The notes beneath the pieces were generated by a model that did no database searches, was not told where the DNA came from, and saw nothing but the letters and a program-made list of their open reading frames with translations. From positions 229,639 to 293,638 of the forward strand of contig NZ_CP044217.1 in the NCBI RefSeq assembly GCF_008727715.1: a stretch of DNA of 64,000 bases. The letters run 5' to 3'. Shown piece by piece: positions 26,357 through 59,117 of the stretch (position 1 is the stretch's first letter; every line of letters begins with the position of its first letter). Source of the DNA: Mesorhizobium terrae (lineage in GTDB: Bacteria > Pseudomonadota > Alphaproteobacteria > Rhizobiales > Rhizobiaceae). A program made the translations under genes and the position numbers.

Positions 26357-26454
26357 GTCTTTCCTTCACCCTCTCATTGGGCAAAAGAACTCTGCTCGCC
26401 GAATCGACGCCTAAGACTCTTGACAGTGATTCGCGGAAATGAGATTCTCAGCTT

Positions 26455-26508
26455 GTCCAGAGATGAGAAGGGCTTCCGCGACGGTGACGTTCGGGGGCCT
26501 TTTTCTTT
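26455..26508 (+). ncRNA. candidate counter-transcribed RNA (incA-type) controlling repC
   Basis: The repB-repC spacer on the strand opposite repABC carries TTGACA at 26420-26425, a 17-base spacer and GATTCT at 26443-26448 as a possible promoter. A stem GGCTTCCG / CGGGGGCC (8 pairs, two G-U, 26471-26478 with 26492-26499) follows, then TTTTTCTTTT. This would give an RNA of about 55 nt, the size of the antisense RNAs known in this place in repABC plasmids, where they lower RepC synthesis and set incompatibility. The -10 match is poor, so the start is approximate. Confidence 0.7.
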
Positions 26509-26515
26509 TGCGGTT

Positions 26516-34145: not shown

Positions 34146-35039
34146 ATGACACTCGAACAGCTTCGTATCTTCCTCGCCGTGGCAGAGCGCGGGCACGTCA
34201 CCAGGGCGGCGCGCGTGCTAAACCTCACGCAATCAGCGGTCTCCGCCGCGATCTCTACGCTTAAGGCGCAGCATGGGGTGCGGCTTTTCGACCGGATCGG
34301 TCGCGGCATCGAGATCACGGAAGCCGGTCGCACTTTCATGGGTGCGGCGCAGGCCGTCATGGCTGAGGCAGAGACAGCGCGACTTGTGCTTGCGGATCTG
34401 GCGCAGGACGTCCGGGGGCGGTTGCGCATCCATGCGAGTCAAACAGTGGCAAGCTATTGGCTGCCGCCATTTCTGATAACGCTACATGAACGCCATGCCG
34501 GCCTGGATATGGCACTTATGGTCGGCAATACTGCTCAGGTGGCGCAGGCTGTGACAAATGGTGCGGCAGACCTAGGCTTTGTGGAAGGTGACGTGACCCA
34601 GAACGATCTCAGGCGTCGCGTCGTTGCTCGCGATGAACTTGTATTCGTGATGTCGCCCGACCATCTTTTGGCAAAATCTCGCTCGCTCGGTGCGCTGGAT
34701 TACGGACGGACAAGCTGGGTCCTGCGCGAACTCGGGTCCGGTACGCGGTCGGAATTTGAGGCGCATCTGAGCGCCATGAGGCTGTCGATCGATGATCTCG
34801 ATATCGCGCTCGAACTGCCCTCGAACGAGGCAATTCTGGCCGCTGTTGCTGGCGGACGTTGTATCAGCATGCTGTCACGCCGCGCGGTCGAGGGAGCGGT
34901 GTCGCAGGGAGTCGTGCGGATACGCTCCGTCACATGGGCACCAAGGCCCGAACGCAGCTTTGCTGTCCTGACCCATCCCGCGCGCCACCGCACCCGCGCG
35001 GCCGAAGCGTTGCTGAACCTCATCGACGAGGCGCGCTGA
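34146..35039 (+). CDS. LysR family regulator, 297 aa
   Basis: The N-terminal winged helix MTLEQLRIFLAVAERGHVTRAARVLNLTQSAVSAAISTLKAQHGVRLFDRIGRGIEITEAGRTF is typical LysR, followed by a periplasmic-binding-type effector domain (RGRLRIHASQTVASYWLPPFL...). Its closest relatives in type are CysB/YeiE-like and other sulfur or anion-responsive members, judged only from the DNA-binding region. It is preceded by an unusually AT-rich 60-base stretch, likely its promoter. Its 3' end overlaps that of the convergent second LysR gene by 20 bases. It may control the sulfonate operon or an unlinked target. Confidence 0.9.
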   Translation: MTLEQLRIFLAVAERGHVTRAARVLNLTQSAVSAAISTLKAQHGVRLFDRIGRGIEITEAGRTFMGAAQAVMAEAETARLVLADLAQDVRGRLRIHASQTVASYWLPPFLITLHERHAGLDMALMVGNTAQVAQAVTNGAADLGFVEGDVTQNDLRRRVVARDELVFVMSPDHLLAKSRSLGALDYGRTSWVLRELGSGTRSEFEAHLSAMRLSIDDLDIALELPSNEAILAAVAGGRCISMLSRRAVEGAVSQGVVRIRSVTWAPRPERSFAVLTHPARHRTRAAEALLNLIDEAR

Positions 35040-35973
35040 CGGTATCGGTGCTCCCGATCGTCGGAGGCTCACGTTGAGGCGGTGGCTGCGCAATTTGCGA
35101 CCAGACTTCACTGGCGACCGGTCCTGACGTTCCCAACAACCTGACAGCCGTAATTTCCAGCGGGCAGGAAAGCAGCATCTCAGAGATGTCCACGACAACG
35201 CCGTCTCTGATGCGTTGCTTGGCAAGCGATTCGGGCACCCAGGCCACCGCTATGCCGACTGCCGCCATCTCGAGCGCGGCAAGTGTGAGCGCCGTTTCTG
35301 CGATCGGCATGAGCCTTGTTGCACCGCTCAGGCGCGGCAGGATCAGTCTTCCCATCATGCTGCCAAAAAACACGTTACCTGGATAAGCGATATAGGGAAC
35401 CTCGTCCCCCGCAATTCTCAGAGCCAAATCGTCAAGCGCACCGGCATCGAAGACCGGGATGAGCCGGTCGAAGCCGATAGTAGCCGATTCGACATACCCG
35501 GCATTAACGGGATGATCCTCTCCCGGCACACGGTAGATAACGGCGATATCGGCTTGGCGTGAGAGCAGAAGGCCGACGCATTCATCGAGATTGGCCGAGC
35601 GAAGGCGGACATGGATCGTCTCGTTTTGCTGCCGCAACTTCTTGAGAAGGTGCGGCGTCAACGCCGTCGTCAGTGAATGCTGGCTTGCAAGGACGACGCG
35701 ATTCGAGGCGACGCGAGCGTCGAGTTTGAGATCCACGACAAGCTGACGCAGATCTACGGCAAGCTTTTGGATTTGATCGCGCTTGTCGGCCATTGTCGGG
35801 CGTACCTGCACCGGCTTTCGGGTCCGGTCGAACAGTTCGGTTCCGACATGATCTTCGATGTTCTGTATTCGCCTGGAAAAGGCTGATTGCGTGAGAAACC
35901 GCCGCTCCGCCGCTTCATGGAACGATCCGGTCTCGGCGACAGCAAGGAGATCCTCAAGCCATTCGAGGCGCAT
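35020..35973 (-). CDS. LysR family regulator, divergent from the sulfonate operon, 317 aa
   Basis: MRLEWLEDLLAVAETGSFHEAAERRFLTQSAFSRRIQNIEDHVGTELFDRTRKPVQVRPT is the LysR DNA-binding domain; the effector domain follows from NRVVLASQHSLTTALTPHLL. The gene is divergent from the cysteate lyase gene, with 110 bases between that contain a perfect inverted repeat (35984-36006). This is the standard arrangement for a LysR activator of an adjacent catabolic operon, as with CuyR before CuyA. The inducer is probably a sulfonate or its breakdown product; this is inference from the neighbours. Confidence 0.92.
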   Translation of the reverse strand: MRLEWLEDLLAVAETGSFHEAAERRFLTQSAFSRRIQNIEDHVGTELFDRTRKPVQVRPTMADKRDQIQKLAVDLRQLVVDLKLDARVASNRVVLASQHSLTTALTPHLLKKLRQQNETIHVRLRSANLDECVGLLLSRQADIAVIYRVPGEDHPVNAGYVESATIGFDRLIPVFDAGALDDLALRIAGDEVPYIAYPGNVFFGSMMGRLILPRLSGATRLMPIAETALTLAALEMAAVGIAVAWVPESLAKQRIRDGVVVDISEMLLSCPLEITAVRLLGTSGPVASEVWSQIAQPPPQREPPTIGSTDTVSAPRR

Positions 35974-35983
35974 GACGGCTCCA

Positions 35984-36006
35984 TAAGATGCAATATGTGC
36001 ATCTTA
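35984..36006. promoter_or_regulatory. LysR operator between the regulator and the sulfonate operon
   Basis: TAAGATGCA, a 5-base spacer (ATATG) and TGCATCTTA form a perfect 9-bp inverted repeat 10 bases upstream of the lysR ATG and 78 bases before the lyase ATG. It contains the T-N11-A pattern of LysR sites. It probably serves both autoregulation and activation of the operon. Confidence 0.8.
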
Positions 36007-36083: not shown

Positions 36084-37106
36084 ATGCATCTCGCTCGCTT
36101 TCCACGCGTCTTCCTGGCCCATCTGCCGACGCCTCTCGAAAAGCTCGACCGGCTCAGCCGGGAGCTTGGCGGACCGGAGATCTGGATAAAGCGCGACGAC
36201 TGCACCGGGCTGTCGACTGGCGGCAACAAGACCCGCAAGCTGGAATTCCTGATGGCCGAAGCTCAAGCCATGGGCGCCGACACGGTGATGACACAGGGCG
36301 CGACGCAATCTAACCACGCGCGCCAGACGGCGGCTTTCGCGGCAAAGCTTGGGATGGGCTGTCATATCCTGCTTGAGGATCGTACCGGTTCGAATGACTT
36401 GAATTACAACAGCAATGGCAATGTGCTGCTCGACCATCTGCACGGAGCGACCACATCGAAACGTGCGGGCGGGGCCGACATGCAGACCGAGATGGAAAGC
36501 GTGGCCGAGAAACTACGCGGAGAGGGTCGTAAAGTCTATGTTATTCCCGGTGGCGGCTCGAATGCCACAGGCGCGCTAGGCTATGTCAACTGCGCATTCG
36601 AACTGTTGTCGCAAGCTAACGACAGGAGCCTTGTGATCGATCATATTGTTACCGCAACCGGCAGCGCTGGCACGCAGGCCGGCCTCGTCACAGGGCTGAA
36701 GGCTATCAACGCCAATATTCCGCTGACCGGCATCGGCGTGCGCGCGCCGAAGGAAAAACAGGAAGAGAGCGTTTACAAGTTAGCTCTTCAGACAGCCGAA
36801 AAGCTCGGCTGCTTCAATGTCGTTGCGCGGTCGGACGTGGTCGCCGACAGCAACTATGTTGGGCAAGGCTATGGCATTCCGCGTGAGGACACGTTGGAGG
36901 CGATCCGCATGTTCGCTCAGCTTGAGGGTATTCTTCTCGATCCCGTATACTCGGGCAAGGGCGCGGCGGGCCTGATCGACTATTGCCGCAAGAGCAAGTT
37001 CAATAAGGGAGAGCGAGTGGTCTTCCTGCATACCGGCGGTTCGGCGGCTCTCTTCGGCTACAACGCTGCCTTCGCGGAAGACCAGACCAAGCTCGCGGCG
37101 GAATAG
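36084..37106 (+). CDS. cuyA: L-cysteate sulfo-lyase / D-cysteine desulfhydrase family PLP enzyme, 340 aa
   Basis: [60 protein letters not shown] is the start of the CuyA/DcyD group of fold-type II PLP enzymes; GNKTRKLE carries the PLP lysine, and [22 protein letters not shown] and [16 protein letters not shown] are conserved substrate and phosphate-binding loops. CuyA splits L-cysteate into pyruvate, ammonium and sulfite; DcyD does the same with D-cysteine, releasing sulfide. Linkage to a Tau-type sulfonate importer and an HpsN-like enzyme favours the sulfo-lyase role. GGAAGG lies 8 bases before the ATG at 36084. First gene of a seven-gene operon. Confidence 0.85.
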
Positions 37107-37108
37107 CC

Positions 37109-38317
37109 ATGGCGCGACAGCGGTTCACCGGCAGCTTCACGCAGCAGCTTCCAATCCCTGACGAGGGCATCACCGCAGCTGCCGCCGTAATGCGTTCGGG
37201 CCGACTGCATCGCTACAATATCGCCGGCGGCGACGAGAGCGAGGCGATGGCCTTGGAACGCGAATATGCGGCCTGGCAGGGCGCGCGTTTCTGCCTTGCA
37301 GTCGCGTCGGGCGGACAAGCGATGCAGATCGCGTTGCGTGCGGCCGGCGTCCGTGCCGGCGAAACGGTTCTGACCAATGCCTTTACTCTTGCTCCCGTGC
37401 CCGGGGCTATCGCAGCGGTCGGCGCCAAGCCGGTATTTGTCGAAACAACCGAGGATCTCGTTATCGATCTCGACGATCTGTCGAGCAAGGCAAAGCGCAC
37501 CGGCGCACGCTACCTGCTTCTGTCGCACATGCGCGGCCATATGTGTGACATGGAGGCGCTTCTGGCAGTCGCCACAGAGATCGATCTGACGGTAATCGAG
37601 GATTGCGCCCACACCATGGGTGCGACTTGGAATGGGCGCCGCTCAGGTTCCTTTGGGCTTGCTGGCTGTTTCAGCACCCAGACCTACAAGCATTTGAATT
37701 CGGGTGAGGGCGGATTGCTGACCTCGGACGACGCCGAATTCATTGCTCGCGCCACAATCCTGTCGGGCTCTTATATGCTCTACGAGCGACATGGCGCGGG
37801 ACCGAATCCAGACACGTATACCAATATCCGGCTGGACACGCCAAACATGTCGGCTCGCATGGACAATTTGCGCGCGGCCCTACTGCGCCCACAACTGCAA
37901 GGCATCGAACAGGCCATCTGCGCCTGGAACGCGCGGCACGATCTGTTGGCCGCAAGGCTGGCCGCTAACCCTGAGATCCGCATACCGCACCGGCCCGCTG
38001 CCGAACGATATGTCGGATCCTCTATTCAGTTTATGATCCCGGTGATTTCGGCGAAGTCCGCGCGCGTCCTGCTGAGACTTCTTGCCGATATGGGGGTCGA
38101 GGTAAAATGGTTTGGGGCAAAAGCGCCCGCAGGTTTCACATCGGACCACCATAGTTGGCGCTACGCAGGCGCGCAGGATCTGCCGCGCACCGATGCAATC
38201 CTGGCAAGTCTCTTCGACATGCGACTACCGCTCACCTTCAGCCTCGACGATTGCGAGCTGATTGCCGACCACATCCTCGATGCCGTGACGGCCGTCGCGC
38301 CGAAAGTCGAGGCATGA
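37109..38317 (+). CDS. DegT/DnrJ/EryC1/StrS family PLP aminotransferase, 402 aa
   Basis: The sequence has the DegT-family layout: ALEREYAAWQGARFCLAVASGGQAMQIAL, ETVLTNAFTLAPVPGAIAAVGAKPVFVE, LTVIEDCAHTMGATWNGRRSGSFGLAGCFSTQTYKHLNSGEGGLL. The lysine in YKHLNSGEGG binds PLP. Members usually transaminate sugars, but some act on small keto compounds or amino alcohols. It starts two bases after the lyase gene stop and overlaps the next gene, so it belongs to the same operon. A role in moving an amino group to or from a C3-sulfonate (for example sulfopyruvate and cysteate) is inferred from context. The usual sugar substrates would be out of place here. Confidence 0.85.
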   Translation: MARQRFTGSFTQQLPIPDEGITAAAAVMRSGRLHRYNIAGGDESEAMALEREYAAWQGARFCLAVASGGQAMQIALRAAGVRAGETVLTNAFTLAPVPGAIAAVGAKPVFVETTEDLVIDLDDLSSKAKRTGARYLLLSHMRGHMCDMEALLAVATEIDLTVIEDCAHTMGATWNGRRSGSFGLAGCFSTQTYKHLNSGEGGLLTSDDAEFIARATILSGSYMLYERHGAGPNPDTYTNIRLDTPNMSARMDNLRAALLRPQLQGIEQAICAWNARHDLLAARLAANPEIRIPHRPAAERYVGSSIQFMIPVISAKSARVLLRLLADMGVEVKWFGAKAPAGFTSDHHSWRYAGAQDLPRTDAILASLFDMRLPLTFSLDDCELIADHILDAVTAVAPKVEA

Positions 38318-39048
38318 TGCGCCGCGTCGGCATTCTCGGAGGCATGGGTCCGGAGGCGACGGTCCTTGTCATGCAAAAGGTTCTGGCCGCCGTCCACGCC
38401 GACGACGATGCAGGCCATATACCGCTGATCGTCGACCAGAACCCCCAAGTGCCTTCGCGCATCCGCCATCTGATCGAAGGCGTCGGCGTTGACCCCGCGC
38501 CAGTTTTGGCAGACATGGCCCGCCGTCTGGTCGCAGGCGGGGCCGAGGCACTTGCCATGCCTTGCAACACCGCGCACCATTATGCGCCTGCGATCCTTGC
38601 CGCCGTCGACGTGCCGTTCCTGGATATGGTTGCGCTGGCGGCCGATCGTGCGGCGGAATTGGCCGGCTCTGGAGGTCGCGTGGGCATCCTTGCTTCACCC
38701 GCGGTGCGCAAAGTGGCCCTGTTCGATACGCCGCTGACCGCACGACGACTGACGCCACTTTATGCCGATGACGATGAGGCCCTGCTGGCCGCAATCCGCC
38801 GCATCAAGGCCGAGGGGCCTTGCCACGCGGCACGCCAGGCGCTCCGCAACGCCTCGACCGGTCTGGCAGCGCGCGGGGCGTGCGTGCAAATGATCGCTTG
38901 CACCGAATTCTCTCTGATCGGCAATGCAGTGGCCGATCGTGTCACGGCCTTGGACACGCTTGACTGTCTGGTGCAGGCAATTGTCGCCTTTGCCGCATCG
39001 GGCCCAATAAACGCGCTAACGCGCTTTAACTGCCTTCAAAAACAATAA
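38317..39048 (+). CDS. Asp/Glu racemase family protein, 243 aa
   Basis: MRRVGILGGMGPEATVLVMQKVL opens the aspartate/glutamate racemase fold. The two catalytic cysteines are in AMPCNTAHHY and MIACTEFSLI, both conserved, so it should be an active two-base racemase. It starts in the ATGATG overlapping the aminotransferase stop; I prefer the second ATG (38317), with GAGG at suitable distance. In this operon a racemase could interconvert D- and L-cysteate, which differ from aspartate only by a sulfonate in place of the carboxylate, feeding the L-specific lyase. That substrate is a hypothesis. Confidence 0.88.
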   Translation: MRRVGILGGMGPEATVLVMQKVLAAVHADDDAGHIPLIVDQNPQVPSRIRHLIEGVGVDPAPVLADMARRLVAGGAEALAMPCNTAHHYAPAILAAVDVPFLDMVALAADRAAELAGSGGRVGILASPAVRKVALFDTPLTARRLTPLYADDDEALLAAIRRIKAEGPCHAARQALRNASTGLAARGACVQMIACTEFSLIGNAVADRVTALDTLDCLVQAIVAFAASGPINALTRFNCLQKQ

Positions 39049-39091
39049 CAAGAGCGAAACGCCAACCGATACCAACAATGGAGGAATGACA

Positions 39092-40084
39092 ATGACATCG
39101 ATTTTCGGGAAGACGATCCTGCTGGCAACGACCGCGATCATGGTATCTTCGAGTTTGGTTCAGGCGGAAACCCTGACGATCGCTACTTTCAGCGATCCGA
39201 CGCCCATGAACGCCGCCCGCGCTCAGCACGATTTTGAGAAGGCCACCGGCTGGACGATCGACTGGCGCGTCTTCGATTCGGGAACCGATGTCATCGCGGC
39301 GATGGCGTCGGGCGATGTGAAGGTGGCCGAGCTCGGCTCCTCGCCTCTCGCGATCGCGGCCACACAGGGCGTCGATTTGAAGATGTTCATGTTCTCCTAC
39401 GCGATCGGCGATTCCGAGAGCCTGATCGCGCGCAATGGTTCGGGGATCGAGACGCTGGCCGACATCAAGGGCAAGCGCCTGGCGGTTCCGGTCGGCTCGA
39501 CCGCTCACTTCTCGCTGATGGGCGCGATAGCTCATGCTGGTTTGCAGCCCGGCGATGTGACCGTGATGACGATGAAGCCCGATCAGATCGCGGCAGCCTG
39601 GGGCCAGGGCACGATCGACGCAGCCTTTATTTGGCCACCGGCGCAGACCGAGATCCTCAAGACGGGAAAGCGCATCGTCTCGGCCAAGGATACGGCTGAG
39701 TGGGGATATCCGACGTTCAACGCCTGGACGGTCAACTCGGACTTCCTCGCCTCGCACGAGAAGGAGGTTGTCGCGTTCGCGAAGGCGATGAACGCGGCAA
39801 ACATGGCCTATCTCAAAGACCCCGCTGCTTGGACGCCGGAAAACGAGAAAGTCAAGCAGATTGCCAGCGTGACCGGAGCCACTGCCGAACAGATTCCCGA
39901 TATACTGAAAGGCTACACCTTCATCCCGTTGCAGGAGCAGGTGACTGCCAAATGGCTGGGTAATGCGCCGATGGCACTCAAGGCGACGGCCGATTTCCTC
40001 AAATCCGCAGGTCGGATCGACGCTACCGCAGACGACTATTCAAAGTTTGTCACCAGCACGATAGCGCAAGAAGCAGCTAAATAG
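39092..40084 (+). CDS. tauA: Tau-like sulfonate ABC transporter, substrate-binding protein, 330 aa
   Basis: A signal peptide (MTSIFGKTILLATTAIMVSSSLVQA, cleavage after VQA) is followed by ETLTIATFSDPTPMNAARAQHDFEKATGWTIDWRVFDSGTDVIAAMASGDVKVAELGSSPLAIAATQGVDL. The DSG...A.ASGDV....LGSSPLA pattern is that of taurine-binding TauA proteins. It would capture a small sulfonate in the periplasm. The ATG at 39092 has GGAGG 7 bases upstream; the ATG two codons earlier is too close to it. Together with the next two genes it forms a complete importer. The exact ligand (taurine, cysteate, cysteinolate or dihydroxypropanesulfonate) cannot be read from sequence. Confidence 0.88.
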   Translation: MTSIFGKTILLATTAIMVSSSLVQAETLTIATFSDPTPMNAARAQHDFEKATGWTIDWRVFDSGTDVIAAMASGDVKVAELGSSPLAIAATQGVDLKMFMFSYAIGDSESLIARNGSGIETLADIKGKRLAVPVGSTAHFSLMGAIAHAGLQPGDVTVMTMKPDQIAAAWGQGTIDAAFIWPPAQTEILKTGKRIVSAKDTAEWGYPTFNAWTVNSDFLASHEKEVVAFAKAMNAANMAYLKDPAAWTPENEKVKQIASVTGATAEQIPDILKGYTFIPLQEQVTAKWLGNAPMALKATADFLKSAGRIDATADDYSKFVTSTIAQEAAK

Positions 40085-40091
40085 TCCGACT

Positions 40092-40118
40092 GTCCCGCCC
40101 GGCCACACCGGGCGGGAC
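40092..40118 (+). terminator. strong hairpin between tauA-like and tauB-like genes
   Basis: A perfect 11-bp stem (GTCCCGCCCGG / CCGGGCGGGAC) with a 5-base loop, 7 bases after the binding-protein stop. No T-run follows. Such hairpins commonly protect the 3' end of the binding-protein mRNA so that it is made in excess over the ATPase and permease. Confidence 0.7.
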
Positions 40119-40142
40119 GGCGCGCTGACCTGGGAGGAGCCA

Positions 40143-40934
40143 TTGCGCCTGAACATCGACGACGTCTCTGTAGTCTATCCCGCGTCCGACGGACGACCAC
40201 CGGTCGCTGCGCTCAGCAAGATCATGCTGGAGATCGGTGACAGCGAATTTGTTGTCGCGCTCGGCGCATCGGGCTGTGGCAAATCGACCTTGCTTAACCT
40301 GATTGCGGGCTTTCTCGCCCCCACATCGGGACGATTGACGCTTGATGACGCGCCCGTGAGAGGACCAGGCGCGGACCGCGCGGTCGTTTTCCAAAAGCAT
40401 GCCTTATTGCCTTGGTTTGACGTCCTGGACAACGTTGCCTTCGGCCTTCAGGTCCAGGGTGTAGCCTTGGCCGCCCGCTATGAGACGGCCAACCGCTTTA
40501 TCGAACTCCTCGGACTGGATGGCTTTCAGAAATCGCCAGTCTACAAGCTATCTGGCGGCATGCAGCAACGCGTGGGAATCGCGCGCGCGCTGACTTGCGA
40601 TCCGAAAATCCTTCTCATGGACGAGCCTTTGGGCGCGCTCGACGCTCTCACGCGCGAGAAGGCGCAGGAGTTAATCCTCAGCATCTGGAATGAGTCCAAC
40701 AAATCAGTCTTCTTCATCACCCACAGCGTCGAGGAGGCCCTTTTTATGGGGACCAAACTGATCGTGATGTCGCCACGGCCAGGGCGCATAACCCATGCAT
40801 TCGACCTGCCCTTTTCCCGGCAATTTCTTGCCGGCTCTCCTGCAAGGGGTGTCAAAGCTTCGCCGGAGTTCATCAATTTGCGTGAACAGGTTCTGAAGAT
40901 CATTTTCGCAGACGAGGAGGCGGTGGCGACATGA
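40143..40934 (+). CDS. tauB: Tau-like ABC transporter ATPase, 263 aa
   Basis: Walker A GASGCGKST, signature LSGGMQQRVGIARAL and Walker B ILLMDEPLGALDAL are all intact; the length is normal for a nitrate/sulfonate/taurine-type ATPase. It starts at a TTG (40143) preceded by GGAGGAG; there is no ATG at the family's usual start. Its stop overlaps the permease start by four bases (ATGA). It powers sulfonate import with the binding protein and permease on either side. Confidence 0.9.
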   Translation: MRLNIDDVSVVYPASDGRPPVAALSKIMLEIGDSEFVVALGASGCGKSTLLNLIAGFLAPTSGRLTLDDAPVRGPGADRAVVFQKHALLPWFDVLDNVAFGLQVQGVALAARYETANRFIELLGLDGFQKSPVYKLSGGMQQRVGIARALTCDPKILLMDEPLGALDALTREKAQELILSIWNESNKSVFFITHSVEEALFMGTKLIVMSPRPGRITHAFDLPFSRQFLAGSPARGVKASPEFINLREQVLKIIFADEEAVAT

Positions 40935-41800
40935 GCGAACAAGCCGATCTGGAATCGCCGATCGCCAAAGGGATGTTTGGAAGGATTTCGCGAGCGCGCC
41001 CCACAAAGCCCGGAGAAATTTACGGGGTGCCCGGGCAAGGTAATACACTTTGGCTCTCGGCCTTGTCGATCGCTTTTTTCTTCGCCGTCTGGTGGCTGGT
41101 CACGGAAATGGGCTGGGTCAGACCGCTGTTCGTACCCTCGCCAGTCTCGATTGTCAGGAAATTCTTCGAGATCTGGAACAGCGGCTTCACCGGCACGCCG
41201 TTCGTTGAGCATGTGCTTATATCGACCGCGCGCGTGTTCGGCGCGTTCTTGCTGGCCTGCGCGATCGGCCTACCGCTCGGGCTTGCGATGGGAATGAGCC
41301 CGGTGGTGCGTGGCATCTTCGACCCTCCTATCGAGTTTTACCGGCCGATCCCGCCGCTGGCCTACCTCCCACTGATGATCATCTGGTTCGGCATTGGCGA
41401 AATGTCGAAGGTGCTGCTGATTTTTCTATCAGTGTTCGCACCGGTCGTGCTCGGCGCCCGCTCTGGCGTGCGTTCCGCGGCGATCGAGCAGATCCACGCA
41501 GCCTATTCCTTCGGAGCGACGCGCTGGCAGGTGATGCGCTACGTCATTCTGCCGTCTGCATTGCCAGAGATACTGACCGCTATGAGGATCGGTATCGGTT
41601 TCGGTTGGACCACACTCGTCGCCGCAGAGATGGTCGCTGCCACCAAGGGCCTCGGCTACATGGTGCTGTCCGCGAGCCAGTTCCTGCAGACGCCGGTCGT
41701 TATCCTGGGCATCTTCATTATCGCCATCATCGCTTTTGCCTTCGACCTTTTGATGCGGTTCCTTGAACGACGTCTCGTGCCCTGGAAGGGCAGGATGTAA
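40931..41800 (+). CDS. tauC: Tau-like ABC transporter permease, 289 aa
   Basis: Six or so hydrophobic segments, starting LWLSALSIAFFFAVWWLVTEMGW, and the EAA loop (SAAIEQIHAAYSFGATRWQVMRYVILPSALPEILTAMRIGIGFGWTTLVAAEM) define a TauC/SsuC-type permease. The N-terminal 30 residues are soluble. It completes the importer and is translationally coupled to the ATPase gene. The following dehydrogenase gene starts 18 bases later, so all belong to one operon. Confidence 0.9.
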   Translation: MSEQADLESPIAKGMFGRISRARPTKPGEIYGVPGQGNTLWLSALSIAFFFAVWWLVTEMGWVRPLFVPSPVSIVRKFFEIWNSGFTGTPFVEHVLISTARVFGAFLLACAIGLPLGLAMGMSPVVRGIFDPPIEFYRPIPPLAYLPLMIIWFGIGEMSKVLLIFLSVFAPVVLGARSGVRSAAIEQIHAAYSFGATRWQVMRYVILPSALPEILTAMRIGIGFGWTTLVAAEMVAATKGLGYMVLSASQFLQTPVVILGIFIIAIIAFAFDLLMRFLERRLVPWKGRM

Positions 41801-41818
41801 CCGGAAAGCCAAACCCCT

Positions 41819-43105
41819 ATGAAATATCTTAAAAGAGCCGCGCGAACGGCGGAAGCGGATCAATCTGACGTTAGCGCCGCTGTCCAGAAAATATTGTCGG
41901 AGATCAAGATCAATGGCGAAGCAGCCGCACGCTGCTACGCCAAGGAGTTCGATAAATGGGACGGCGAAATCGTTATTTCGCAAGAACAGCGTAAGGCGGC
42001 AGCGGCCTTCCTGCCAGATCAGCTAAAGGCCGATATCCACTTCGCCCATGACAATGTCCGCCGCTTCGCCGAGGCGCAGCTAGCAACCGCCACGGATTTC
42101 GCGGTGGAAATCCTGCCGGGTTTGACGGCGGGGCAGAAGCAAATCCCGGTTTCTTCAGCGGGCTGCTATGTCCCAGGCGGCCGCTATAGTCACGTGGCGA
42201 GCGCGATCATGACGATCACCACGGCGAAGGTTGCGGGCGTGTCCCATATTGCCGCTTGTTCACCGCCGCGCCCGGGTGTTGGGATCCCGGCTGCGATTGT
42301 CTACACGATGGATCTGTGCGGCGCCGATATCATCCTGAATATGGGCGGCGTGCAGGGCGTCGCCGCAATCGCGAACGGCCTGTTCGGCGTCAGGAAGGCT
42401 GATATTCTCGTCGGCCCGGGCAACCAATATGTCGCGGAGGCTAAGCGCATCCTATTTGGCCAGATCGGTATCGACATGGTCGCCGGTCCGACGGACAGCA
42501 TGGTGATCGCCGACACGACAGCCGACGCCGAACTGGTCGCCGCGGATCTGATTGGGCAGGCCGAGCACGGCTGGAATTCGCCGGTCTGGCTCGTTTCTTC
42601 AGATGCGGCGCTTGCCGCGCGCGTGATGACCCTCGTGCCCGAGCTGATCGAGGCGCTACCCCAACCGAACCGAGACAGCGCCCGGGCGGCATGGGCCGAT
42701 TTCGCTGAAATCATCCTATGCGCGGACGCTGAGGAGATGGCTACAGTCGCAGATGACTACGCGCCCGAGCATTTGCATGTCCAGGCCGACGATCTCGACT
42801 GGTGGCTCAATCGCCTGCGCGCATATGGGTCGCTCTTTCTCGGCGAGGAGACCACGGTGGCCTTCGGGGACAAAACATCGGGCCCCAACCATGTCCTGCC
42901 CACCTCCGGGGCCGCGCGCTACACTGGTGGGCTGTCGGTGCACAAGTTCATGAAAACCGTGACGTGGCAACGGGCAACCCGTGCCGCAGCACGCCCCTTG
43001 GCGGAGGCCACGGCGCGAATTTCGCGGCTGGAAGGCATGGAGGGTCATGCAAGGACGGCCGACATCCGGCTCACAAAGTTTTTTCCCTCAAGAGCTTCAA
43101 TCTAA
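41819..43105 (+). CDS. hpsN: HpsN/HisD-like NAD-dependent alcohol-to-acid dehydrogenase, 428 aa
   Basis: The sequence is a full HisD-fold enzyme. The zinc and catalytic residues known from histidinol dehydrogenase are visible: Q and H in GQAEHG, E-H in YAPEHLHVQ, D in FGDKTSGPNHVLPT, and the C-terminal H in EGMEGHA. GCYVPGGRYSHVASAIM is the NAD-binding region. In sulfonate operons this family contains HpsN, which oxidises dihydroxypropanesulfonate to sulfolactate. Because HisD itself oxidises an amino alcohol to an amino acid, oxidation of cysteinolate to cysteate is an equally reasonable guess here, next to a cysteate lyase. It is the last gene of the operon. True HisD is unlikely, as no other histidine genes are near. 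Confidence 0.85.
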   Translation: MKYLKRAARTAEADQSDVSAAVQKILSEIKINGEAAARCYAKEFDKWDGEIVISQEQRKAAAAFLPDQLKADIHFAHDNVRRFAEAQLATATDFAVEILPGLTAGQKQIPVSSAGCYVPGGRYSHVASAIMTITTAKVAGVSHIAACSPPRPGVGIPAAIVYTMDLCGADIILNMGGVQGVAAIANGLFGVRKADILVGPGNQYVAEAKRILFGQIGIDMVAGPTDSMVIADTTADAELVAADLIGQAEHGWNSPVWLVSSDAALAARVMTLVPELIEALPQPNRDSARAAWADFAEIILCADAEEMATVADDYAPEHLHVQADDLDWWLNRLRAYGSLFLGEETTVAFGDKTSGPNHVLPTSGAARYTGGLSVHKFMKTVTWQRATRAAARPLAEATARISRLEGMEGHARTADIRLTKFFPSRASI

Positions 43106-43233: not shown

Positions 43234-44172
43234 CTATTTGCGGGAGAAATTCGACCGGCCAGTATCGATTTGCCTTGAGGCTTGCGCCAGACGCCGCCGG
43301 AAAGCTCCCGGCTGGCTGCCAAAACGCTGCGCAAAAGCTTCGTAGAAGCGTGAAAGGGACCCGAAACCCGACTCAAATGCAACATTTGCGATCGGCATGT
43401 CGGTTGCGATCAGCAAGGACTGCGCCGTATCGAGCCGCTGGCGCACGATCGACTGGTTGATCGTCAGGCCGACTGCGCGCTTGTAGATAGTCATCGCGTA
43501 GTTGGTATGTAGATTAACTGAGCGCGCAACATGCTCGACTGTGATGGCCTCCAACGCGTTCTCGCTAATGAAGCGGGCCATACGTTCGACGTGGACTATC
43601 CTTTCGCCGTCGCCGTGGTGAGCCACATTCATGGCCTCGCCCACCTGTCTCAGATCGCGCCACCCTTCCCGATCAAGGCGGCGAACACGGGCTGTCAATT
43701 CGTCGCGCACGATCTGCTCCAGCGCGGTGTCCCTCGAAAGGAGCTCGTCTCGCCAGCGCCTGAAAATATCATGGTCGTAGCTTTTGATATCGAGCGCCTC
43801 GATCATGGCTCCACGAAACACCGCCTCGCGAAAGCTGCTGAGGCTCGGCAAGCCCAAAAAAACCGACATCGGAACATAGAGGCAGACAAAATGCGTCGGC
43901 TCGTCGAGTTCGATGACCTGATGCGGGATCATGCCCCAAAACAGCACCAGACGGCCGGCAGACACCGTCAGTTCACGTCCGTCGAACCAGTAGGTCATAC
44001 GGCCGTCGAGCACGAAGTTGAATTCGATCTGGCTGTGCATGTGGGGGCCAGGCATGCGCATCACACGATCGCTCGACCCAGCGCAAAATCTGTGATCGCC
44101 GAACACCACCAGCGGATGTGCCGGATTCAGTTCCGGATGCGCCGGAACGCTTTCGTCTTGAGGAGACCGCAT
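43234..44172 (-). CDS. AraC family regulator of the galactoside operon, 312 aa
   Basis: The N-terminal cupin-like sensor (MRMPGPHMHSQIEFNFVLDGRMTYWFDGRELTVSAGRLVLFWGMIPHQVIE) is followed by a C-terminal double helix-turn-helix (ITVEHVARSVNLHTNYAMTIYKRAVGLTINQSIVRQRLDTAQSLLIATDMPIANVAFESGFGSLSRFYEAFAQRFG). The domain order and GPHMHSQIE motif resemble MelR-type regulators of melibiose use. It is divergent from the binding-protein gene with 162 bases between, and probably activates the galactoside operon when an alpha- or beta-galactoside binds. It converges with the sulfonate operon, 128 bases away. Confidence 0.92.
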   Translation of the reverse strand: MRSPQDESVPAHPELNPAHPLVVFGDHRFCAGSSDRVMRMPGPHMHSQIEFNFVLDGRMTYWFDGRELTVSAGRLVLFWGMIPHQVIELDEPTHFVCLYVPMSVFLGLPSLSSFREAVFRGAMIEALDIKSYDHDIFRRWRDELLSRDTALEQIVRDELTARVRRLDREGWRDLRQVGEAMNVAHHGDGERIVHVERMARFISENALEAITVEHVARSVNLHTNYAMTIYKRAVGLTINQSIVRQRLDTAQSLLIATDMPIANVAFESGFGSLSRFYEAFAQRFGSQPGAFRRRLAQASRQIDTGRSNFSRK

Positions 44173-44334
44173 CTCGACGCCGGGCCTACCTTAGAAAACC
44201 GGAAGAATGCTCAAAAAACTCGGTAGAAGCTTACGGCATTCACGGTCAGATTCAAGCCGCTCACGCTACGTCGCCAAAATGACGCGTGAGGCTGGCGGCG
44301 TCTGAAACAGTCGCCGCTTCAAGGGAGGAACAAC

Positions 44335-45567
44335 ATGAACAGCTTGAAAAGCTTGGCTGGGCTGGTGCTCGGCGTCGCCATGACTTGCGCGCCGGCGGTC
44401 GCCGGCGAGATCGTGCTGAATTCGGACCAGTCAGATCCAGCGCCGAAGAAGGCAATGGAGCAGTTGATTGCAGATTTCGAAAAAGCCAATCCCGGCGTTA
44501 CAGTGAAATGGAACAATTTCGACCACGAAGGCTACAAGGCGGCAATCCGTAACTTCCTGACCGCCGATCCGCCCGACGTCGCGGCCTGGTACGCCGGCAA
44601 CCGAATGGCGCCCTTCGTCAAGGCCGGGCTGTTCGAGGACGTCACCGACGTCTGGACCGCCAATGGGCTGGACGACCAGTTGAAGTCCGCCGCCTCGGCC
44701 TTGACCATCGACGGCAAGAAGTGGGGCGTCCCCTACACTTACTATCAGTGGGGCATCTACTACCGGAAGGATGTCTTTGCCAAAGAAGGCATAACGCCTC
44801 CAAAGAACTGGGAAGAGCTGATGGCGGCATGCGCCAAGCTGAAGGCGGACGGCATCACGCCTTTCGCCATCGGCACCAAGGCCCTGTGGCCGACCGGCGG
44901 GTGGTTCGACTATCTGGACCTGCGCGTCAACGGCTATGAGTTCCACATGGACCTGACCGCCGGCAAGGTGCCCTACACCGATCCCAAGGTGAAGGCAGTC
45001 TTCGCGAAGTGGGCTGAGTTGGTGAAGCCGGGTTATTTCCTGGAGAATCACGCCGCGCTCGACTGGCAGGACGCAATCCCGCAATTCGTACAGGGCAAGG
45101 CGGCAATGTATCTCATGGGCAATTTCGCGGTTGCGCCGATGAAGGACGGCGGCTTGAAAGAAGACCAGATCGGCTTCCTGCAGTTCCCCGAGATAACGGC
45201 CGGACTGCCGATGGCGGAAGACGCGCCGACCGATACCTTTCATATTCCCTCAGGTGCCAAGAACAAGGACGACGCCCGGAAATTCCTGGCCTTCCTGGCC
45301 TCGCCGGGCGCTCAGACCAAAATGAACGACATTCTTGGCCAGCTTCCGGTCAACAACACGTCGGCGAAACCGAGCGATCCGTTCCTTGAAGCCGGTTTTA
45401 TCATGCTGTCAAACGCGCACGGTCTGGCGCAGTTCTATGACCGCGACGCGCCGGCCGAAATGGCAAAGGCCGGAATGGAAGGCTTCCAGGAGTTCATGGT
45501 CAAGCCCGACAAGATTGACGCCATCCTGGATCGTCTCGAGAAGGCGCGACAAAAAATCTACAAATAG
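44335..45567 (+). CDS. sugar ABC transporter substrate-binding protein, 410 aa
   Basis: A signal peptide (MNSLKSLAGLVLGVAMTCAPAVA) precedes a family-1 solute-binding protein: ADFEKANPGVTVKWNNFDHEGYKAAIRNFLTADPPDVAAWYAGNRMAPFV, and WGVPYTYYQWGIYYRKDVFAKEGITPPKNWEELM. GGGAGGAAC lies just before the ATG. It is the first gene of the operon, and the linked GH36 and GH42 enzymes point to galactosides such as melibiose, raffinose or lactose as ligands. A hairpin terminator with a T-run follows and should make this product more abundant than the downstream ones. Confidence 0.9.
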   Translation: MNSLKSLAGLVLGVAMTCAPAVAGEIVLNSDQSDPAPKKAMEQLIADFEKANPGVTVKWNNFDHEGYKAAIRNFLTADPPDVAAWYAGNRMAPFVKAGLFEDVTDVWTANGLDDQLKSAASALTIDGKKWGVPYTYYQWGIYYRKDVFAKEGITPPKNWEELMAACAKLKADGITPFAIGTKALWPTGGWFDYLDLRVNGYEFHMDLTAGKVPYTDPKVKAVFAKWAELVKPGYFLENHAALDWQDAIPQFVQGKAAMYLMGNFAVAPMKDGGLKEDQIGFLQFPEITAGLPMAEDAPTDTFHIPSGAKNKDDARKFLAFLASPGAQTKMNDILGQLPVNNTSAKPSDPFLEAGFIMLSNAHGLAQFYDRDAPAEMAKAGMEGFQEFMVKPDKIDAILDRLEKARQKIYK

Positions 45568-45580
45568 CGCCTGATCGGCG

Positions 45581-45618
45581 GGAGCCGGGCATCTCTCTCC
45601 CTTGCCCGGCTCCTTTTT
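45581..45618 (+). terminator. intrinsic terminator between binding-protein and permease genes
   Basis: An 11-bp perfect stem (GGAGCCGGGCA / TGCCCGGCTCC) with an 11-base loop, followed directly by TTTTT. It lies 14 bases past the binding-protein stop and 27 bases before the permease start, so it is probably a partial terminator inside the operon. Confidence 0.85.
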
Positions 45619-45644
45619 CAACCGGTATCGCAACGGTAGGCGCC

Positions 45645-46553
45645 ATGAGCGTATATCAACATTCATTCGCCAGGGCCGCAAAGGGCTGGCGCAAACGTCT
45701 GGCCCCTTGGCTTTTTCTGGCCCCCGGGCTCCTGTTCTTTGCGGTATACGTCGTAGTTCCGATCTTCCGGTCGATCTGGATAAGCTTCTACGAGTGGGAC
45801 GGATTGTCGGCTGCCACCTGGATCGGTGTCGCCAACTATCGGGAGCTTCTGAGTGACGACGCCTTCTACACGTCGCTCTACAACAACATTCTTTGGCTGG
45901 TCTTGTATCTTCTTGCCGTGCCGGCCGGTCTCGGCGTTGCCCTTTTCCTGAACCAGACCGTCACCGGTATCCGCCTCTACAAGTCGCTCTTCTTCTTTCC
46001 GTTCGTGATCAGCCAGGTGGTCGTCGGCCTGATCTTCACGTGGTTTTACGCGCCAAACTTCGGTCTCTTTTCCAAGCTGATCGAAGACATCACCGGCCAG
46101 CAGATCGCAATTCTCGGCGACGAGCGCTTCGTCACCTTTGGCATCATTGCCGCCGGTCTCTGGCCGCAGATCGCGTACTGCATGATCCTCTACCTGACCG
46201 GCTTGAACAACATCAATCCCGAACAGGTCGAGGCGGCGCGCATGGACGGCGCCAAGGGGTGGTCGATGCTGTGGAACATCGTCATCCCGCAACTCAGGCC
46301 AGCCACTTTCATCGCGGTCGTGGTGACGGTCATCGGCGCGCTGCGTTCGTTCGACCTGGTGTCGATCATGACGGACGGCGGTCCCTATGGCTCGAGCCGC
46401 GTCCTGTCCTTCTACATGTACGAGGAGGCTTTGTCGGAATACGGCTACCGGATGGGCTACGGCGCGGCGATAGCGGTCGTCTTATTTGCCATCATGATGA
46501 TCTTCATCACGTTTTTCATCTTCCGGATGCTGAGGCAGGAGAGGAACACGTAA
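45645..46553 (+). CDS. sugar ABC transporter permease, MalF/UgpA type, 302 aa
   Basis: Six transmembrane segments (first: LAPWLFLAPGLLFFAVYVVVPIFRSIWISF) and an EAA loop (NPEQVEAARMDGAKGWSMLWNIVIPQLRPATFIAVVVTVIGALRSFD) mark a MalF-type permease. Its TAA overlaps the ATG of the second permease by one base, so the two are made together and form the membrane channel with the ATPase at 49515. A short N-terminal cytoplasmic stretch (YQHSFARAAKGWRKR) precedes the first segment. Confidence 0.92.
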   Translation: MSVYQHSFARAAKGWRKRLAPWLFLAPGLLFFAVYVVVPIFRSIWISFYEWDGLSAATWIGVANYRELLSDDAFYTSLYNNILWLVLYLLAVPAGLGVALFLNQTVTGIRLYKSLFFFPFVISQVVVGLIFTWFYAPNFGLFSKLIEDITGQQIAILGDERFVTFGIIAAGLWPQIAYCMILYLTGLNNINPEQVEAARMDGAKGWSMLWNIVIPQLRPATFIAVVVTVIGALRSFDLVSIMTDGGPYGSSRVLSFYMYEEALSEYGYRMGYGAAIAVVLFAIMMIFITFFIFRMLRQERNT

Positions 46554-47404
46554 TGTTTCCGACACCCGTTCAAAAGGCTCGGCCGTGGGTAAGGGTCGGC
46601 TACCAGGTCGGTCTTCCGGTGGCCCTGGCGGTCTGGCTGCTACCACTGATCGGAGTGGCGGTCACCTCCGTTCGTCCCGCCGGCGATCTGGCCGCGGGCA
46701 ACTATTTTGGCATCCCATCCGGCTTTGCAGGGGTGGAGAACTACACCGCCGTCTTCAGGGACTCGCCTATCGGCTGGTACATTCTCAATTCCTTCAAGGT
46801 CACCATCCCCACGGTTGTCGGCGCGGTCGCTCTTTCCTGCCTGACCGGCTTCGCGCTCGCGGTCTACAAGTTCCGGGCCAACCTTCTGATCTTCTTTCTC
46901 TTCGTGGCGGGTAATTTCATTCCTTTTCAGATATTGATGGTGCCCGTCCGCGACATGACGCTCAAGATCGGCCTTTACGACACCACGCTGGGGCTGGTCC
47001 TGTTCCATGTCGCCTTCCAGATCGGCTTCTGTACGCTGTTCATGCGCAACTTCATCAAGGGCCTTCCCTTCGCCCTGATCGAATCGGCGCGCGTCGAGGG
47101 CGTATCGGAATGGAAGATCTTTCGGCATGTGGTGCTGCCATTGATGCGACCAGCCATCGCCGCGCTCGCGGTCCTGATCTTCACCTTCGTGTGGAACGAT
47201 TATTTTTGGGCAACCGTCTTGGTGCAGAGCCAGAACGCCATGCCCGTGACGGCCGGCCTTTATTCTCTCAACGGTCAATGGGTCGCCGCCTGGCATCTGG
47301 TGTCGGCGGGCGCCATCGTCGCCGCCCTGCCGCCCGTGATCATGTTCTTCCTGATGCAGCGACATTTCATCGCCGGCCTTACTCTCGGAGCCACCAAGGG
47401 ATGA
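46553..47404 (+). CDS. sugar ABC transporter permease, MalG/UgpE type, 283 aa
   Basis: Starting MFPTPVQKARPWVRVGYQVGLPVALAVWLLPLIGVAVTSVRP, it has six membrane segments and the MalG-type loop LIESARVEGVSEWKIFRHVVLPLMRPAIAALAVLIFTFVWNDYFWATVL. The frame stays open far upstream, but the ATG overlapping the first permease's stop is the family start. Its TGA overlaps the alpha-galactosidase ATG by four bases. Partner of the permease encoded just before it. Confidence 0.92.
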   Translation: MFPTPVQKARPWVRVGYQVGLPVALAVWLLPLIGVAVTSVRPAGDLAAGNYFGIPSGFAGVENYTAVFRDSPIGWYILNSFKVTIPTVVGAVALSCLTGFALAVYKFRANLLIFFLFVAGNFIPFQILMVPVRDMTLKIGLYDTTLGLVLFHVAFQIGFCTLFMRNFIKGLPFALIESARVEGVSEWKIFRHVVLPLMRPAIAALAVLIFTFVWNDYFWATVLVQSQNAMPVTAGLYSLNGQWVAAWHLVSAGAIVAALPPVIMFFLMQRHFIAGLTLGATKG

Positions 47405-49503
47405 GACGCCTCGTCTCGATCGGAAACGAACGGCTATCGCTTGTCCTTGCACTGCAGGACGAGGGCATGCCCGAGATGGTGTATTTTGGCCCCGGGTGCC
47501 CCGGTGAAGAAATCTCTCTTTCCGCCGAGCGCGCGAGCCGTATCAACGGCATGGACGTGTCGGTGCCGAGCGCGGTGCTGTTGCCTGTCGGCGGCCTTGG
47601 CTTCTTCGGCTGGCCGGCGCTGGCCGGGCATCGCAACGGCCGTGACTTCCTGCTGAATTTCCAGGACTGGCAGGTCGAGCACACGACAATGGGCGTGGTG
47701 CTTCGCGGTCTCGACCGGGTTGCCGCGATCGCCGTTGCCTTCGAGCTTGCTATCCACGACTGCGGCGTCGTCGCCACCGCGGTCACCGTTACCAACCACG
47801 GAACCGAAACATACACACTAGACCGGTGCATGGCCGCGACCATGGCGGTGGGCGACGGCCCGGCAGTGCTGACGAGCTTGTCCGGTATGTGGGGGCGGGA
47901 GTTCCGCCTTTCGTCCGAGCCTCTCGGCCGCAGCCTGTGGATGCAGGAGAGCAGGCGCGGCCGTACCTCGCACGACCGGTTCCCGGGTCTTTTTCTGACG
48001 ACCGGACGAACCACATACGCCATCCATGTCGGCGCCAGCGGCAACCACCAGCTCGCCGTCGATCTCATCGATGACGGCCGCCGCCTCGTGCATGGCGGAG
48101 AGCTGTTCGAGCCGGGCGAGGTATTGCTGGAGGCCGGGCAAAGCTACCATAGCCCGCAGGCATATCTCACCGCATCTTTCGACGGGGTCGCCTGCGCAGC
48201 CTCGAGATTGCGCGCTGTCGTAGACGAAGCGATACTGGATTGGCCCGACGCCAAGGCGCCGCCTCGCCCCGTCACGCTCAACACCTGGGAAGGCTCCTAT
48301 TTCGATCATCGGCTGGACGCCCTCAAGGCGCAGGCCGAGGTTGCGGCCGAGCTTGGCGTCGAGCGCTTCGTCCTCGACGACGGCTGGTTCGGCCGACGCG
48401 ACGACGACACGTCCTCGCTCGGAGACTGGAGCGTCGACCACAGGAAGTATCCCTCGGGACTCGAGCCACTGATCGACCACGTCATCGGACTCGGCATGGA
48501 ATTCGGCCTGTGGTTCGAGCCCGAGATGGTCAGTCCCGATTCCGACCTCTATCGGGCGCATCCGGATTGGGCGCTGGGGATCGCCGGCAGGCCGCGCCCT
48601 CTCTCGCGTCAACAGCTGGTGCTCGACCTGACGCGCCAGGAGGTCAGCGACTACCTGTTCGACCGGATCGACGCGATGCTTGGGGCGCACCGCATCTCCT
48701 ACGTCAAATGGGATATGAACCGTGACTTGACCAATGCAGGCGGCTTCGACGGACGAGCCGTGACGGCAAGCCAGACGCGCGCAGTGCACGCGCTGATGGA
48801 CCGCGTGCGCAAGCGCCATCCCGCGGTCGAGATCGAGAGCTGCGCCTCGGGTGGCGGCCGCGCCAACTATGGCGTGCTGCGACATACACACCGCATCTGG
48901 ACGTCGGATTGCACCGATGCCCTGGAACGGCTGGAGATTCAGCGCGGCGCCACGCATTTCTTTCCGCCCTCGATCCTGGGCGCCCACATATCCGGCTCGC
49001 CGAACCATCAGACGGGGCGCCGCCATTCGCTCGCCTTCCGCGCCGTCGTGGCGCTGGCCTATCATCTCGGCGTCGAACTCGATCCACTGACGCTCGCGCC
49101 CGACAAGCGCCGCGAGTTGGCTCAGTGGATCGCGCTGCACAAGCGTCTGCGGCCGCTGCTGCACGCGTCGAGGGCGTCCTTCGCCGGCAATCCGGTCGAC
49201 GGACGCTATGTCTGGGGCGCGGCACTGCCGGACCGAATCGCGCTTTTCGTCGCGCAGGGGCCGACGATGCTGGCGGAGCAGCCACCGCCGCTGCAGGTTG
49301 CCGTGCCTCAGGCAACAGCCCGACGCTGGCGCATCGCAGCAGTTCATCCCGCGGCGCCCGCCTTCGTTCGTTTATCCGCCGGGCAGCAGGCGCTTCTGGC
49401 CGGAGAAAGCGATTTCAGCCTGGACACGTTGCGCCATGCCGGCCTGGCGCTACCGATGCTACGACCCGAGAGTGGCGTCATCCTCGAAATCGAACCCGTT
49501 TAG
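47401..49503 (+). CDS. GH36 alpha-galactosidase, 700 aa
   Basis: The N-terminal beta-sandwich is followed by the catalytic barrel: NTWEGSYFDH, VERFVLDDGWFGRRDDDTSSLGDW, FGLWFEPEMVSPDSDLYRAHPDW, YVKWDMNRDLT (the Asp of KWDMN is the nucleophile), EIESCASGGGRANYGVLRHTHRIWTSDCTDALERLEIQRG (acid/base Asp in SDCTD). All are intact and the length is normal. It releases galactose from alpha-galactosides such as melibiose and raffinose. No signal peptide is seen, so it acts in the cytoplasm on imported sugar. Start ATGA overlaps the permease stop. Placed between the permeases and the ATPase, it is clearly part of the import operon. Confidence 0.92.
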   Translation: MRRLVSIGNERLSLVLALQDEGMPEMVYFGPGCPGEEISLSAERASRINGMDVSVPSAVLLPVGGLGFFGWPALAGHRNGRDFLLNFQDWQVEHTTMGVVLRGLDRVAAIAVAFELAIHDCGVVATAVTVTNHGTETYTLDRCMAATMAVGDGPAVLTSLSGMWGREFRLSSEPLGRSLWMQESRRGRTSHDRFPGLFLTTGRTTYAIHVGASGNHQLAVDLIDDGRRLVHGGELFEPGEVLLEAGQSYHSPQAYLTASFDGVACAASRLRAVVDEAILDWPDAKAPPRPVTLNTWEGSYFDHRLDALKAQAEVAAELGVERFVLDDGWFGRRDDDTSSLGDWSVDHRKYPSGLEPLIDHVIGLGMEFGLWFEPEMVSPDSDLYRAHPDWALGIAGRPRPLSRQQLVLDLTRQEVSDYLFDRIDAMLGAHRISYVKWDMNRDLTNAGGFDGRAVTASQTRAVHALMDRVRKRHPAVEIESCASGGGRANYGVLRHTHRIWTSDCTDALERLEIQRGATHFFPPSILGAHISGSPNHQTGRRHSLAFRAVVALAYHLGVELDPLTLAPDKRRELAQWIALHKRLRPLLHASRASFAGNPVDGRYVWGAALPDRIALFVAQGPTMLAEQPPPLQVAVPQATARRWRIAAVHPAAPAFVRLSAGQQALLAGESDFSLDTLRHAGLALPMLRPESGVILEIEPV

Positions 49504-49514
49504 GAGCCTGAACC

Positions 49515-50611
<1,097 letters not shown>

Positions 50612-50612
<1 letters not shown>

Positions 50613-57439: not shown

Positions 57440-57520
57440 ATATAGCACAAACAATGCATTTTATTCGCCGCATTGCGGCTGATACCCCATTCGTGATGAC
57501 AACCTTCATTGGGGATTGCC

Positions 57521-59092: not shown

Positions 59093-59117
59093 CGGCCGGA
59101 CACTAAGGAACACGCAA

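Follow-up and report, generated by a model that had tools for sequence, protein, structure and literature searches.

A plasmid-borne operon of Mesorhizobium terrae combining an HpsN-type dehydrogenase with CuyB and CuyA: a probable locus for cysteinolate catabolism

Which sulfonate is consumed by an operon that places a HisD-like dehydrogenase behind the enzymes of cysteate breakdown? Such an operon lies on the second contig of Mesorhizobium terrae (NCBI RefSeq assembly GCF_008727715.1, contig NZ_CP044217.1), within a stretch of 64,000 nucleotides (positions 229,639 to 293,638, the final 64 kb of the 293,638-base contig) that we call the window. A preliminary description of this DNA had proposed that the operon degrades cysteinolate (2-amino-3-hydroxypropane-1-sulfonate, i.e., taurine with an additional CH2OH group), with dihydroxypropanesulfonate (DHPS) as the alternative. 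From the comparison of sequences and gene neighborhoods, we assign a rough probability of 0.6 to the reading that the operon is under LysR control and serves to degrade a C3 aminosulfonate alcohol, with cysteinolate the likeliest.

An open reading frame (ORF) check and family profiles recovered the seven tightly spaced or overlapping genes in the order described before (36084–43105), all open and co-directional on the forward strand, with intergenic gaps of 2, −4, 37, 58, −4, and 18 bases. The first, cuyA (36084..37106), encodes a D-cysteate sulfo-lyase dependent on pyridoxal phosphate (PLP; NF052482, 548.6 bits, cut-off 450), and the third, cuyB (38314..39048, with the start at 38314 or 38317), a cysteate racemase (NF052483, 276.8 bits, cut-off 190), both over the curated NCBIfam cut-offs and in line with the lyase and racemase named earlier. 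Between them is a gene for a DegT/DnrJ/EryC1/StrS-type aminotransferase (37109..38317; PF01041, 191 bits), for which no equivalog scored over its cut-off. The importer genes encode a TauA-type periplasmic binding protein (39086..40084; TIGR01729, 325.6 bits, cut-off 304.25), a TauB-type ATPase (40143..40934; best match NF008421, 327 bits, under the cut-off of 357) and a TauC-type permease (40931..41800; best match NF007545, 313.1 bits, under the cut-off of 342). Of the proposed Tau-type importer, the binding protein is over its taurine cut-off, and the ATPase and permease have taurine equivalogs as top matches, both below cut-off. The last gene (41819..43105) encodes the HpsN-type (HisD superfamily) dehydrogenase, our proposed cysteinolate dehydrogenase. 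Catalytic residues are intact, as had been claimed: H125, E317, H318, D351, and K352 in the dehydrogenase, K194 in DegT, by the family motif presumably the PLP lysine, and C83 and C195 in CuyB, presumably the racemase cysteine pair.

Histidinol dehydrogenase (HisD), with which the dehydrogenase shares a Pfam family, carries out a four-electron oxidation from alcohol to acid on a 2-amino alcohol. The nearest solved relatives of the window enzyme are the (R)-DHPS dehydrogenase 8wwe (609 bits) and the sulfopropanediol 3-dehydrogenase 8v35 (526 bits), whereas HisD structures reach at most 235 bits. The hallmark of HpsN is a G-R-Y-A/S-H motif with His126, a position that in HisD is mostly Leu (PMC11382572). 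In the window enzyme, GRYSH occupies residues 121–125 and places H125 at the His126 position, where all 55 cuy-context and all 66 DHPS-context HpsN sequences compared below also have His. Among the residues named for HpsN in PMC11382572 or PMC11131964, E317, H318, D351, and K352 match Glu318, His319, Asp352, and Lys353 of CpHpsN, H358 is kept too, and Ser226 of CpHpsN is replaced by Thr, as in 34 of the 35 DHPS-type enzymes compared. The genome holds two further PF00815 genes, one of which, on the other contig, is a far better HisD match (546 Pfam bits). This separate gene and the ranking of the nearest structures rule out a histidinol dehydrogenase, and the earlier HpsN/HisD-like label is narrowed by motif and structures to what is, on sequence criteria, an HpsN-type sulfonate dehydrogenase. 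The third HisD-superfamily gene lies on the large contig (L175, G000:C2:428000-442000) next to an Xsc-like thiamine diphosphate-enzyme gene; one HpsN-like sequence of unclear class, probably the one at L175, has Leu at the His126 position.

With the HpsN-HpsO-HpsP system of DHPS catabolism (Cupriavidus pinatubonensis, Ruegeria pomeroyi) the operon shares the HpsN-type enzyme, the GRY(A/S)H motif and intact Glu, His, Asp, and Lys residues, but it has a LysR instead of a LacI regulator and TauABC instead of a tripartite ATP-independent periplasmic (TRAP) importer; SuyAB, ComDE and SlcD were not found there, and tblastn detected neither hpsO nor hpsP in the window, so that the operon context of known HpsN is lacking. 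Cysteate dissimilation by CuyB and CuyA has both enzymes in common with the window, which adds the HpsN-type dehydrogenase and DegT in one operon.

Do such combinations mark a distinct kind of HpsN? We gathered 140 distinct HpsN sequences from loci drawn from DegT, HpsN and operon-DNA searches and classed them by tblastn neighbors within 8 kb: 66 in a DHPS context (defined by hpsO/hpsP, a DHPS TRAP importer, SuyB, ComDE or SlcD), 55 beside cuyA and/or cuyB, two beside degT only, one mixed (L046) and 16 unclear. One member of the DHPS class (L232), so labeled on a 35% match to a short-chain dehydrogenase/reductase, groups among the cuy kind and is probably mislabeled. The cuy context comprised cuyA at 53 loci, 51 of them also with cuyB, and degT at 39, a count that is inflated because some loci came from the DegT-led search. 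TauA of any similarity was near 30 of the 55, and at ≥45% identity near 25, versus 1 of 66 in the DHPS class. We searched by tblastn for sulfolactate dehydrogenase (an SlcD-like query and an Ldh2 query, one each), SuyB and ComDE, and none of these genes was detected within 8 kb of any of the 55, which agrees with the earlier observation that the gene set lacks the sulfolactate dehydrogenase of the CuyA branch of DHPS catabolism. At least one of them accompanied 38 of the 66 DHPS-class sequences (Fisher p 1e-13), although they help to define that class; in a cleaner comparison, they were found with 35 of the 62 HpsN beside hpsO/hpsP versus 0 of 55. DHPS-type TRAP importers were likewise near 38 of 66 versus 0 of 55, their absence being part of the definition of the cuy class (excluded locus: L046). 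Both kinds of HpsN occur in five organisms, namely Paracoccus seriniphilus (on plasmids), G004, G035, G038 (where the DHPS label rests on comDE) and G412, which argues for different substrates. Cysteinolate would be the simplest substrate, because the gene set was found without an enzyme from sulfolactate to sulfopyruvate and HpsN would give cysteate directly; the step from cysteinolate to cysteate suggested in the preliminary description is therefore the reading that best fits the gene context.

The same enzymes could instead be read as a DHPS operon of the CuyA type, in which HpsN would form R-sulfolactate, an unlinked dehydrogenase would convert it to sulfopyruvate, DegT would be the missing sulfopyruvate/cysteate aminotransferase, and CuyB and CuyA would finish the pathway. 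We consider this doubtful. A 1999 title on Paracoccus pantotrophus reportedly names an L-cysteate:2-oxoglutarate aminotransferase activity, which counts for it, as does the closeness of the window HpsN to a true R-DHPS dehydrogenase (8wwe). A DHPS route through CuyA has also been published, with the aminotransferase gene of R. pomeroyi not identified there (PMC11382572). Across 198 genomes of one family, DegT was present in 79 of 82 with HpsN versus 83 of 116 without (Fisher p 3e-6, the genomes being related), and degT-cuyB adjoins hpsNOP at L046/L155, with cuyA missing at that locus or in the G024 genome at E 1e-100. The M. terrae genome has one Ldh_2 gene, so a sulfolactate dehydrogenase elsewhere is possible, but the gene is just 34% identical to the Ldh_2 of an hps-suy operon. 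Set against the DHPS route are the complete lack of sulfolactate dehydrogenase genes near the 55 cuy-context loci, the double equipment for DHPS that it would imply in organisms with both kinds of HpsN, and the distribution of degT itself.

At 16 of the 55 cuy-context hpsN genes, no degT was detected within 8 kb; the core gene set thus exists in places with no transaminase gene nearby, and DegT is ruled out as an obligate part of the operon. Eight genomes among these 16 were looked up, and all have a solitary degT copy elsewhere, from where DegT may act. In 48 genomes (from 50 of the 80 DegT loci described below), DegT co-occurred with HpsN in 42 and with CuyA in 26, a weak signal because DegT is found in 162 of the 198 genomes of the family mentioned above. 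In a quick tree, degT copies from operons are intermixed with solitary ones, forcing at least 10 changes. Besides L046/L155, degT-tauABC adjoins hpsNOP-comDE at L049/L146, and at L288 degT and hpsN follow genes for a GntR/aminotransferase-type regulator, alanine dehydrogenase, aldehyde dehydrogenase, and phosphotransacetylase; these contexts suggest that DegT is a C2 transaminase of C3 sulfonates. The neighbors of solitary copies in roseobacters, to judge from their sequences glmU, glmS, moaA-like, and phosphatase genes, were uninformative as to its role. A roseobacter lipid has cysteinolic acid as its head group, and for the first step of the synthesis of this lipid the available text names no gene (PMC11631085, PMC8319176). 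The solitary copies may thus have a biosynthetic role. In a bolder version, which is a long shot, DegT would act as a cysteinolate aminotransferase, and its solitary copies, which most of the sampled genomes in one Rhodobacterales family possess, would make this head group of roseobacter sulfonolipids.

How would the proposed cysteinolate route run? Following uptake by the TauABC-type system, the HpsN-type dehydrogenase would oxidize the CH2OH group to COO− with two NAD+ and yield cysteate, a predicted reaction for an enzyme whose family and catalytic residues are observed. CuyB would interconvert L- and D-cysteate, and CuyA would cleave D-cysteate to pyruvate, ammonium and sulfite, on the basis of family membership and of activities from the literature. 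DegT could play an accessory part as a C2 aminotransferase acting on these C3 sulfonates (cysteate/sulfopyruvate, or cysteinolate/3-hydroxy-2-oxopropanesulfonate), and sulfite may exit through a YeiH-type exporter encoded elsewhere in the genome, of the type found beside hpsN at 15 of the 55 cuy-context loci. The spatial arrangement of L-cysteate (R) is that of R-sulfolactate. An HpsN that prefers R would therefore make L-cysteate, and CuyB would be needed ahead of a D-preferring CuyA, and this need would account for the presence of cuyB at 51 of the 53 cuyA loci; if the preference were altered and D-cysteate made, CuyB would serve L-cysteate only. The preliminary description had the racemase working from D- to L-cysteate. 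This direction has to be reversed, since the NCBIfam name is D-cysteate sulfo-lyase and CuyA prefers D-cysteate (PMC11382572), so CuyB would convert the L- to the D-form. The proposed chemistry is not without precedent, since HisD acts on a 2-amino alcohol and HpsN enzymes show some tolerance of an amino group at C2: CpHpsN was crystallized with L-cysteate in a geometry resembling that of its own product (PMC11382572), and RpHpsN oxidizes L-histidinol, with an efficiency 691-fold below that for DHPS (PMC11131964).

The tree of 69 HpsN sequences bears on the origin of this route. The window enzyme belongs to a starred group of 26 rows, of which 25 are beside cuyA/cuyB and one is unclear, and two Paracoccus cuy-context sequences (L007 and L127) are nested inside the DHPS clade (pair support 100/100). 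A Pseudomonas cuy-context HpsN pairs with CpHpsN, both on long branches. Changes of the cuy label, either gains or losses, are forced at least four times in the 69-row tree (starred branches) and at least five times in a 108-row quick tree. It is about an even call that the operon encodes a dedicated cysteinolate pathway, one assembled repeatedly by joining a DHPS-type dehydrogenase to a cysteate racemase and a D-cysteate lyase for direct oxidation of this abundant algal compound to cysteate. Position 321 of CpHpsN (Cp321; H320 in the window), two residues past the catalytic His, is H in 46, Q in 8, S in 1, and T in none of the cuy class, and T in 51, Q in 5, E in 5, H in 3, and S in 2 of the DHPS class (n=66). 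From these alignments Cp321 is suggestive only as a specificity residue separating the two kinds.

Several points weigh against cysteinolate as the substrate. Cp321 fails an independent-pairs test: among four usable pairs, 1.6 point the same way and 0 the opposite way for H/Q, and the figures with H alone are 1.5 and 0.5. A divergent sulfolactate dehydrogenase would escape the two tblastn queries, and at L128 (Mesorhizobium sp. 131-2-1), the sole one of the 55 loci with an Ldh-family gene anywhere in the fetched stretches, such a gene (42% to the query) lies ~13 kb from hpsN. The core route would not require DegT, the cysteinolate activity of HpsN is predicted by comparison, and so is the substrate of the importer, which in some relatives is a TRAP or OpuAC-type ATP-binding cassette (ABC) system. 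One title gives the natural compound the name D-cysteinolic acid, an older title 2-L-amino-3-hydroxy-1-propanesulfonic acid. Known HpsN enzymes are R-specific for DHPS, a preference that natural D-cysteinolate may or may not match in its configuration. Finally, CpHpsN is inactive on L-histidinol and is inhibited by L-cysteate at millimolar concentration (half-maximal inhibitory concentration 2.4 mM), which speaks for binding rather than for cysteinolate oxidation (PMC11382572).

Is the arrangement itself more than chance? A genome search for the same gene set, as advised in the preliminary description, recovered the order LysR, cuyA, degT, cuyB, tauABC, hpsN on plasmids of Ensifer adhaerens, Shinella sumterensis, Ancylobacter pratisalsi, and Paracoccus alcaliphilus, and the complete cuyA-degT-cuyB-tauABC-hpsN order at 16 of the 80 loci (the best 80 of 105) fetched by a DegT search of genome contigs, which argues against coincidence. 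The importer appears exchangeable, since an OpuAC-type binding protein and ABC permease replace TauABC in a cuyA-degT-cuyB-hpsN set of G412 (L278, 3881-7590). Sets of cuyA, degT, cuyB and transporter without an adjoining hpsN also exist (L022/L172, L037), as would be expected of an operon that scavenges cysteate (and taurine-like compounds) and carries HpsN as a passenger or for a side substrate; this is unlikely, given that hpsN moved into the cuy context several times and that the window hpsN starts 18 bases after tauC. On three of the four named plasmids, the set is joined by genes for an alpha/beta hydrolase and for an exporter, either YeiH-type or a putative sulfate exporter. Such a hydrolase, near 11 of the 55 cuy-context hpsN genes, could release the substrate from an N-acyl or ester conjugate of cysteinolate (lipids, bile salts), or the operon could serve another amino alcohol sulfonate. 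The lipid head group described above (PMC11631085) speaks for conjugates, but the hydrolase was not found by tblastn in the window, nor near the other 44 loci, and we regard this explanation as very unlikely.

Expression of the proposed cysteinolate operon would be controlled by the LysR-family regulator (35020..35973, reverse strand; Pfam HTH_1/LysR_substrate) that diverges from cuyA. A related LysR gene is divergent from cuyA over a short intergenic region at 29 loci, including the window. This region holds the palindrome AAGATGCA-N5-TGCATCTT (35985..36005, not assigned to a strand), whose core, TGCA-N5-TGCA (35989-36001), recurs at an identical offset in 21 of the 28 distinct intergenic regions between LysR and cuyA, compared with a mean of 0.006 and a maximum of 1 in mononucleotide shuffles; the loci are related, and the 21 occurrences are not 21 independent events. 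The conserved palindrome is probably the operator of the divergent LysR. A YeiE-like LysR gene (34146-35039, forward strand; NF040889, 195 bits, the cut-off of 480 not being reached) overlaps the end of the operon LysR gene. Mesorhizobium sp. 1M-11 (L011) has, just upstream of its operon, a LysR 47% similar to the YeiE-like one and a weakly YeiH-like gene (29%), and an exporter gene may therefore have been lost from the window. No YeiH-type exporter was found there by tblastn, and none of the 41 window ORFs scanned with Pfam was a sulfite oxidase or TauE, as the preliminary description had already remarked for sulfite exporters and oxidases.

The contig is a repABC plasmid, to judge from its repC-, repB- and repA-type genes (window 25151-28710, reverse strand). 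At E 1e-150, this HpsN was found in the M. terrae genome only among nine genomes of the genus, DegT occurs in 15 of 151 genomes of its family, and the operon is likely accessory, horizontally moved cargo. In the rest of the genome, an Xsc route was rejected (best match 290.8, cut-off 676.4), and two PF04295 genes, 30–32% identical to SuyB, gave no support for SuyB. Directly 3′ of the operon (43234-52555) are genes for an AraC regulator, a sugar ABC importer, a glycoside hydrolase family (GH) 36 alpha-galactosidase (Melibiase) and a GH42 beta-galactosidase. Further along, proton-antiporter-type and DabA inorganic carbon transporter genes precede a gene with a 3′-phosphoadenosine-5′-phosphosulfate (PAPS)-reductase domain (57509-62440, forward strand), and a 1698-aa ORF (10696-15792, reverse strand) with weak Eco57I-methylase and helicase matches is a possible restriction/defense gene.

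A 2022 review on the metabolism of cysteinolic acid and a 2024 J. Biol. Chem. paper cited for CuyB may already describe this cluster. The available text of the literature found (including PMC8703288, PMC11131964, PMC8319176, PMC11631085, PMC9695272, PMC8027193, PMC11286703) names no genes for cysteinolate breakdown. Cellular levels of cysteinolate in marine algae are in the range of those of dimethylsulfoniopropionate (DMSP) and DHPS (PMC8703288). The operon thus probably represents candidate genes for the uptake of an algal sulfur compound and its breakdown to pyruvate, ammonium and sulfite, and it supplies a binding protein and four enzymes amenable to purification for probing cysteinolate breakdown. 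Given the split of HpsN between two genomic contexts, hpsN reads in metagenomes may not all signal the use of DHPS.

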